Part shown: positions 21,027 through 22,362 of the stretch, piece after piece
Numbering within the stretch: position 1 is the stretch's first letter
How the letters are laid out: every line of letters starts with the position of its first letter
Assembly: GCF_001995255.1 (NCBI RefSeq)
Contig: NZ_MUZR01000010.1
Coordinates: 1-64,000 of the forward strand
Reading direction: 5' to 3'
DNA length: 64,000 bases
Source: Thioalkalivibrio halophilus
GTDB lineage: Bacteria; Pseudomonadota; Gammaproteobacteria; Ectothiorhodospirales; Ectothiorhodospiraceae
The notes under the pieces: model-generated
Databases searched by the model: none
Told to the model about the DNA's origin: nothing
Seen by the model: only the letters and a program-made list of their open reading frames with translations
Translations under genes and position numbers: made by a program

Positions 21027-21476
21027 TCAGGCTGCGTGGGTCTCCTTGGCCTCGCGCGCGGCCTTCGCCTCTTCGGGATCGTAGGCCGCGCCGGACCACA
21101 ACATCTCGTAGGCGATCTCCTCGTTGCCGTTCTCGCACAGGTCCAGGACCTCCTGGAACAGCGGCTGGAAGGTCTCGCTGCGGTGCGACTCCTCGTGCTC
21201 CTCGAAGCTGCGCCAGAAGGTGATGATCAGCGCTTCCTTGTCCTTCATCGGGCTCTCCACGGCCTGGCCGATGGTGGAACCCTCGTTGGACACCGAGCCC
21301 GAGTTCAGGGCCACGAAGCCGCCGACAAAGCCGCTGTCCGAGTGGTAGGTCTTCACGTTCTCGCACAGTACGGCCACGCGTTCCTGCAGGTCGTCGATGC
21401 TGTATTCCGGCTTGAGGATGACCCGGTTGATGGTCACCACGCCGTCCGGCGGAAAGTTCTGGATCAGGTTGCTCAT
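21027..21476 (-). CDS. Short sulfur oxygenase reductase-like protein
   Basis: A 149-residue soluble protein resembling the N-terminal half of sulfur oxygenase reductase (SOR, about 310 residues). From memory of the Acidianus enzyme, C38 (AVLCENVKTYHSDSGFVGGF) lines up with the persulfide Cys31. H94 and H98 (TFWRSFEEHEESHRSE) line up with iron ligands His86 and His90, and E120 (EEIAYEM) is placed like Glu114. It would be a single ferredoxin-like domain without the C-terminal repeat. A strong site (AAGGAGGA) precedes the ATG. It faces an ArsR-rhodanese regulator across 217 bp with two dyads. Enzymatic sulfur oxidation is not shown; a sulfur or persulfide-handling role is inference. Confidence 0.6.
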   Translation of the reverse strand: MSNLIQNFPPDGVVTINRVILKPEYSIDDLQERVAVLCENVKTYHSDSGFVGGFVALNSGSVSNEGSTIGQAVESPMKDKEALIITFWRSFEEHEESHRSETFQPLFQEVLDLCENGNEEIAYEMLWSGAAYDPEEAKAAREAKETHAA

Positions 21477-21520
21477 AACGTCCTCCTTGGTTTGAGGAAG
21501 ATGCCCGGGGGCATTGTGGC

Positions 21521-21552
21521 TTCATTCAGCGAATCAGAATGTGCTGAATGAA
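21521..21552. promoter_or_regulatory. Inverted repeat upstream of the SOR-like gene
   Basis: TTCATTCAGC (21521-21530) and GCTGAATGAA (21543-21552) are perfect 10 bp arms 12 bp apart, 45 bp upstream of the SOR-like start. The ATTC/GAAT cores recall the second dyad at 21657-21680. It could be an operator for the neighbouring ArsR-family regulator. Confidence 0.5.
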
Positions 21553-21656
21553 TTGTTGACCAATTTACTCAGAAATAGGTGGCACGCAACAAAGGCACAA
21601 GGGCCGAAGGGCCTGTGGAAACCGGGGTTGTGTCGCCGGGCCGGTCTCGGTATCGT

Positions 21657-21680
21657 TCATTCCAAAGAATATTGGAATGA
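21657..21680. promoter_or_regulatory. Probable ArsR-family operator before the ArsR-rhodanese gene
   Basis: TCATTCCAA and TTGGAATGA are perfect 9 bp arms separated by AGAATA, ending 13 bp upstream of the regulator's ATG. The length and spacing suit a winged-helix dimer, and the position suits autorepression. Confidence 0.65.
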
Positions 21681-21693
21681 TAGTTACACCGGG

Positions 21694-22362
21694 ATGGACG
21701 AGCGCGAACTGAAGGATGTGCTGTACGAGCAGGTGGCGCGGATTACGCGCGCCGCGGCCAGCCCCAGGCGCCTGGAGCTGATCGAGGTGCTGGTGCAGGG
21801 CGAGAAGACCGTCGAGCAGTTGGCGGCGGACACCGACATCAGCGTCAAACTGGCCAGTGCCCACCTCAAGGCCCTGCGCGAGGCCCGTCTGGTGGAGGCT
21901 CGTCGCGCCGGGCGTCATGTCCACTATCGTCTCGCTGGCCGCCACGTCGCGGACTTCTGGGTGGTGCTGCGTTCGCTGGCCGAGGAGCGCCTTCTGGAGC
22001 TGCAGGCGGCCACCCGCGAGCTGACCGAGTGCGCCGACGAGCTGGCCCCGGTCGCCGGTCCGGAACTGCTGGAACAGGCCCGGCGCGGCGACGTGGTGGT
22101 GCTGGACGTGCGCCCCGGGGTCGAGTACGCCGCCGGGCATCTCCCCTGCGCGCGCTCCATCCCGCTGCAAGAGCTGAATCAGCGCCTGCAGGAACTGCCG
22201 GCCGACCGCCCGGTGGTCGCTTACTGCCGTGGCCCCTACTGCCTGATGGCGAAAGAGGCCGTCGCCCTGCTGCGCGAGCACGGGATCGCTGCGCAACGCG
22301 TGGAGGAGGGCGTGGCCGAATGGCGCCACGCGGGCCTGCCGCTGACCGACGAGCGGGACTGA
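21694..22362 (+). CDS. ArsR-family regulator fused to a rhodanese domain
   Basis: A 222-residue protein with a winged-helix DNA-binding domain (about 15-100; LELIEVLVQGEKTVEQLAA, SAHLKALREARLVEARRAGRHVHYRL). A rhodanese domain follows (about 118-218), with LDVRPGVEYAAGHLPCARSIPL and the active-site loop YCRGPYC (C178, C183). The ArsR domain has no Cys metal site, so sensing probably uses persulfide or thiol chemistry at the rhodanese loop. It starts at ATG 21694 just after a 9-6-9 dyad. An MFS transporter follows 51 bp downstream and a SOR-like gene is divergent, suggesting control of a sulfur-related pair. Confidence 0.88.
   Translation: MDERELKDVLYEQVARITRAAASPRRLELIEVLVQGEKTVEQLAADTDISVKLASAHLKALREARLVEARRAGRHVHYRLAGRHVADFWVVLRSLAEERLLELQAATRELTECADELAPVAGPELLEQARRGDVVVLDVRPGVEYAAGHLPCARSIPLQELNQRLQELPADRPVVAYCRGPYCLMAKEAVALLREHGIAAQRVEEGVAEWRHAGLPLTDERD

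Follow-up and report, generated by a model that had tools for sequence, protein, structure and literature searches.

Introduction

The usual picture of sulfur oxygenase reductase (SOR) is that of an enzyme found in thermoacidophiles and in a restricted group of bacteria. It consists of two tandem ferredoxin-like domains, some 300 amino acids in all, assembles into a 24-subunit hollow sphere and disproportionates sulfur in an O2-dependent reaction at a bound non-haem iron. Persulfide dioxygenases of the ETHE1/SDO type also rely on mononuclear iron, take a persulfide as substrate and have a metallo-beta-lactamase fold. In Sulfurisphaera SOR, replacement of C31, H86, H90 or E114 by alanine abolishes activity, whilst the C101A and C104A mutants keep about a tenth of it (PMC7398979).

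The window analysed here, a stretch of 64,000 nucleotides from Thioalkalivibrio halophilus, encodes a protein about half as long as SOR, which we refer to as half-SOR. A preliminary description, made from the DNA alone, had likened it to the Cys31, His86/His90 and Glu114 segments of SOR and noted that the second, C-terminal repeat is missing. In the open papers searched, most subscription papers lying outside that search, we came across no account of a family of half-length SORs.

Results

The half-SOR coding sequence, stop codon included, occupies 21027..21476 on the minus strand, a detail missing from the preliminary description, and specifies 149 residues. Both motifs quoted for it earlier, AVLCENVKTYHSDSGFVGGF and TFWRSFEEHEESHR, are present, and C38, H94, H98 and E120 stand in the translation exactly where they had been numbered. 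A ribosome-binding site, AGGAGG, precedes the gene at 21482..21487 (minus strand), and a purine-rich site likewise occurs in an upstream alignment of 13 Thioalkalivibrio loci. The CAI of the gene, 0.887, is the highest among the 55 likely genes of the window, measured against 18 ribosomal-protein genes that themselves score 0.66-0.77; this would fit high expression, although base composition may contribute. With 379 homologous stretches in the reference genomes scanned, the AGGAGG site and the top CAI, the open reading frame is a real gene.

The window protein matches the NCBIfam SulOxRed model over residues 10-121 (E 2e-4, 20.5 bits against a curated threshold of 400) and the Pfam SOR model at E 0.0066 (15.8 bits, threshold 25), and thus scores below the curated level of both families. 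Among 19 diverse half-SOR members, 13 match SulOxRed (best E 1.4e-5) and 17 match Pfam SOR (best E 1.1e-4); a profile search of PDB sequences places SOR first (E 6.5e-4), and weak triosephosphate isomerase matches in PDB were disregarded. Full-length SOR sequences were then collected and split into N- and C-halves for profile-profile comparison. The half-SOR family scores 40.1 in hhalign against the N-half, 17.7 against the C-half and 21.0 against an ABM control profile built from eight sequences only, whilst 300 column-shuffled controls average 13.2 with a maximum of 24.6 and the reversed profile gives 14.7. Since the SulOxRed E-value is 2e-4 and the N-half score of 40.1 clearly exceeds the best shuffle, the resemblance to SOR goes beyond chance. 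A maximum-likelihood tree unites half-SORs with SOR N-halves, the C-halves standing apart (100/99), and within the joint clade separates half-SORs from SOR N-halves (94/81); the tree is unrooted and compatible with both an ancestral and a derived placement of half-SORs. By these profile comparisons, the window protein and the iron-binding N-terminal half of SOR are truly, if remotely, homologous. The proposed relationship is thereby borne out and narrowed to that half, and the lack of a second repeat holds as well, the protein being a single domain matched by the N-half alone.

A joint alignment of 149 sequences (118 close homologues forming group A, 18 members of group B and 13 full-SOR N-halves) contains eight strictly invariant columns, namely C38, F50, G60, T86, W88, H94, H98 and E120. 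Both hhalign and the joint alignment put C38, H94, H98 and E120 in register with SOR C31, H86, H90 and E114. All codons lie on the minus strand: that of C38, matching the substrate-binding cysteine C31, at 21363..21365, and those of H94, H98 and E120, matching the iron ligands H86, H90 and E114, at 21195..21197, 21183..21185 and 21117..21119. The four parallels drawn earlier thus hold without exception in 136 half-length homologues as well as in the 13 SORs, and the loss of conservation that would have spoken against them is not seen. C114 (codon at 21135..21137, minus strand) aligns with C101, helpful but non-essential in SOR; the cysteine is kept in 147 of the 149 sequences and replaced by alanine in two group-B members. 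C104 of SOR has no counterpart in half-SORs, where the alignment shows a gap. Judged from the alignment, conservation in half-SORs mirrors the SOR mutant data: the four essential residues are fixed, the C101 position varies and C104 is absent.

The AlphaFold2 monomer model (pLDDT 86, pTM 0.74) has the ABM-type beta-alpha-beta-beta-alpha-beta order. C38 lies in helix 1, the helix that follows strand 3 carries H94 and H98, and E120 is part of the last core strand; in the model, these are the topological places expected from SOR. A structure search placing generic ABM folds ahead of SOR had been named beforehand as grounds for refuting the SOR interpretation, and taken literally this outcome was obtained. 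Foldseek and VIA-align place single-domain ABM proteins above SOR, with SnoaB at Z 14.1 (1.5 A over 97 residues) and SOR 2cb2 at Z 11.3 over 123 residues. This search discriminates poorly between the two, given that SOR itself consists of a pair of ABM-type domains in one chain and that targets of a single domain are favoured; nor does it bear on the active site, as VIA-align put the model on the C-half of SOR. Sequence profiles are able to separate the two and speak for the SOR N-half. The Pfam scan returned no ABM (PF03992) match for the window protein, and 11 of the 19 half-SOR members match that family weakly (best E 0.0066).

Of the 379 related stretches, 80 were kept, with 78-93% identity to the window protein. 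Genus names among them are mainly Thioalkalivibrio, Thiobacillus and Sedimenticola, with Thiohalophilus and Halochromatium in addition; many others are assigned to uncultured Chromatiales or to other gammaproteobacteria, and a single metagenome bin bears the label Rhizobium. All near-complete genomes searched of the window's genus have half-SOR. It is also present, with 70-76% identity, in other classes of the phylum, and two of the genomes that carry it measure only 1.0-1.1 Mb. A second subfamily, B, of about 130 amino acids and 37% identity (L090), is found in the same kinds of genomes, at times beside the first. In the class sample, 56 of 274 genomes carry half-SOR (a few of these matches being fragments), 9 full SOR and 113 SoxB, which makes half-SOR about six times more widespread than full SOR; both forms are present in G429, G457, G468, G536 and G652. 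Plasmids, phages and IMG/VR viral contigs were searched and contained no copies, and a mobile origin was dropped on that account.

Thiobacillus genomes (L038/L074, L041/L072) have two paralogues each, one by an S24-like gene and MutL and the other near an MFS transporter, and a partial second copy (residues 115-148; G219:C1:1972511-1972612) directly follows the intact gene of L091. Several sulfur-oxidiser genomes also have full-length SORs of another, divergent type (L093, L094, L095, L102, L113-L115). Their scores to PF07682 are about 204-218 bits, where classical SORs reach 416-481, and G400 has both types.

The company that half-SOR keeps in genomes is that of sulfur oxidation. SoxB is present in 51 of the 56 class-sample genomes with half-SOR and in 62 of the 218 without (Fisher p 4e-18, kinship ignored), and in the phylum sample in 8/9 and 52/389, respectively. 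Reverse DsrA was found in 37 of 40 half-SOR genomes as against 21 of 40 SoxB-bearing genomes lacking half-SOR; SoxC, at 5/40 versus 12/40 (p 0.10), was set aside. The distribution of half-SOR follows that of organisms processing zero-valent sulfur, whether or not full SOR is present. In the window's own genome, the dsrA match (G000:C6:48315-49520) lies within an open frame of 999 residues, compared with about 410-505 elsewhere.

At the locus itself, half-SOR does face an ArsR-rhodanese regulator, as had been pointed out: the divergent gene at 21694..22362 (plus strand) has HTH_5 (E 2.7e-12) and Rhodanese (E 1.4e-13) domains. This neighbour deserves little weight, because it was seen beside half-SOR in Thioalkalivibrio only among the loci examined, and it is probably no functional part of the system. 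An inverted repeat around CATTCCAA/TTGGAATG at 21650..21687, by the start of the regulator, recurs as the same motif in L002, L010 and L063 and is likely the regulator's own operator. A perfect 10-nt inverted repeat, TTCATTCAGC/GCTGAATGAA, at 21521..21552 upstream of half-SOR is a possible operator, conserved in position in other strains with its sequence partly replaced. Just before the ribosome site, a short leader hairpin (ATGCCC/GGGCAT, 21501..21514, minus strand) is predicted from folds calculated for six sequences and has its stem as GTGCCC/GGGCAC in relatives; between strains, an A-T end pair gives way to G-C without loss of the stem.

No conserved operon surrounds half-SOR across the loci examined, and genomic context was dropped as a functional clue, the neighbours differing by lineage. 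An S24-like gene lies beside it in Thiobacillus, whilst other gammaproteobacteria have Hsp20-DnaJ-HtrA genes or ATP sulfurylase there. The one sulfur-pathway gene clearly and repeatedly seen next to half-SOR is that of ATP sulfurylase, which follows it directly downstream in L014, L016, L049 and L062; three further loci have a rhodanese gene within about 1 kb. In L172, L173 and L174 (also L014, L016, L064 and L075), half-SOR follows Hsp20-, DnaJ- and/or HtrA-type genes on the same strand, and in L207 and L209 a group-B member is directly downstream of ccoG-/ccoH-like genes of cbb3 oxidase assembly.

Discussion

Computation shows half-SOR to be homologous to the N-half of SOR, to have an ABM fold, to keep four residues invariant and to be associated with sulfur genes; it probably works like the catalytic half of SOR. 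The interpretation we favour, with slightly more confidence than doubt, is that of a stand-alone, single-domain relative of the SOR N-half, forming a homodimeric iron barrel that processes persulfides or polysulfides in sulfur oxidisers. Its retention in genomes of 1.0-1.1 Mb, the top CAI in the window and the ATP sulfurylase gene downstream in four loci also speak for this interpretation; the want of a conserved operon, the absence of C104 and of the C-terminal domain, and the place of generic ABM proteins above SOR in the structure search speak against it. From the dimeric barrels of the ABM superfamily (PMC4835899) we infer that two copies probably pair into an alpha+beta barrel like the one that SOR forms within a single chain. 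A mononuclear iron would be bound in each copy by H94, H98 and E120, and C38, near the iron, would hold zero-valent sulfur as a persulfide. In the redox reaction so envisaged, cytoplasmic persulfide or polysulfide sulfur would most likely be converted to sulfite, or otherwise moved or reduced, with half-SOR acting alongside the reverse-Dsr or Hdr-like pathways. A strictly O2-dependent reaction is not its role everywhere, because one host, Halochromatium glycolicum (L059), is a phototroph that grows without oxygen; this occurrence is compatible with a role as a reductase, in transfer or in sensing.

The same host lends something to a different explanation, namely that half-SOR is a persulfide carrier, buffer or sensor, where C38 would accept sulfane sulfur and either pass it on or signal its presence, the metal at the His/Glu residues being structural or redox-sensing only and no oxygenase reaction taking place. 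Occurrence beside reverse Dsr would fit such a role too, and the 54 invariant positions of group A, spread from one end of the chain to the other, suggest protein partners. Against it stands the invariance of all the catalytic residues of SOR, the cysteine being only one of them, even in group B with its 37% identity. We regard this explanation as rather unlikely. Less probable still is that half-SOR is a generic, cofactor-free monooxygenase or isomerase of ABM type acting on an organic substrate, its likeness to SOR being convergence on a common fold. The leading place of SnoaB in the fold search and the weak Pfam ABM matches do point that way, but the profile score against ABM (21.0) does not exceed that of the best shuffle, the four catalytic residues of SOR are invariant, and the genomic association is with sulfur oxidation. 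That half-SOR is a truncated remnant of full-length SOR, or its accessory subunit, is very hard to credit: the few genomes with both forms would allow it, but the far wider distribution of the half-length form largely refutes it, its lineage is separate from the SOR N-halves, and identities of 70-93% across classes indicate strong selection, not decay.

Returning to the iron-enzyme interpretation, it is tempting to extend it. Half-SOR might be an unrecognised SOR-type iron enzyme of the core sulfur-oxidiser machinery, reverse-Dsr or Hdr-like, that acts on protein or low-molecular-weight persulfides and belongs to the lineage whose fusion with a second ABM domain gave rise to SOR; taken as a whole, we offer this as a conjecture, more apt to fail than to hold. 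A family of this distribution that carries the catalytic set of SOR would be a missing piece of zero-valent sulfur handling in bacteria, and would offer a small protein in which the chemistry and evolution of SOR could be approached through sharp mutational predictions at four residues.

Among known systems, the persulfide dioxygenases could be functional analogues of half-SOR, but their fold is unlike its predicted ABM fold, and the Pfam and NCBIfam scans gave no match between the two. With the ABM/dimeric alpha+beta barrel proteins (PF03992, Pfam clan CL0032), half-SOR shares its predicted fold and a length of a single barrel half; it differs from them in having no significant sequence match and in its SOR-like His-His-Glu-Cys set. 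As SOR is defined, half-SOR is not a member, being a single domain, below the family thresholds and without C104. It lacks the second ABM domain, and of the pocket cysteines C101 and C104 of SOR keeps the equivalent of the first. Half-SOR is set apart from SOR also by a subfamily-specific SNEGS segment. Even so, SOR (PF07682, NF047630; structures 2cb2 and 6m35) is the system to which it is homologous, through the N-half, with the equivalents of C31, H86, H90, C101 and E114 in register and the GF and TxW motifs common to both.
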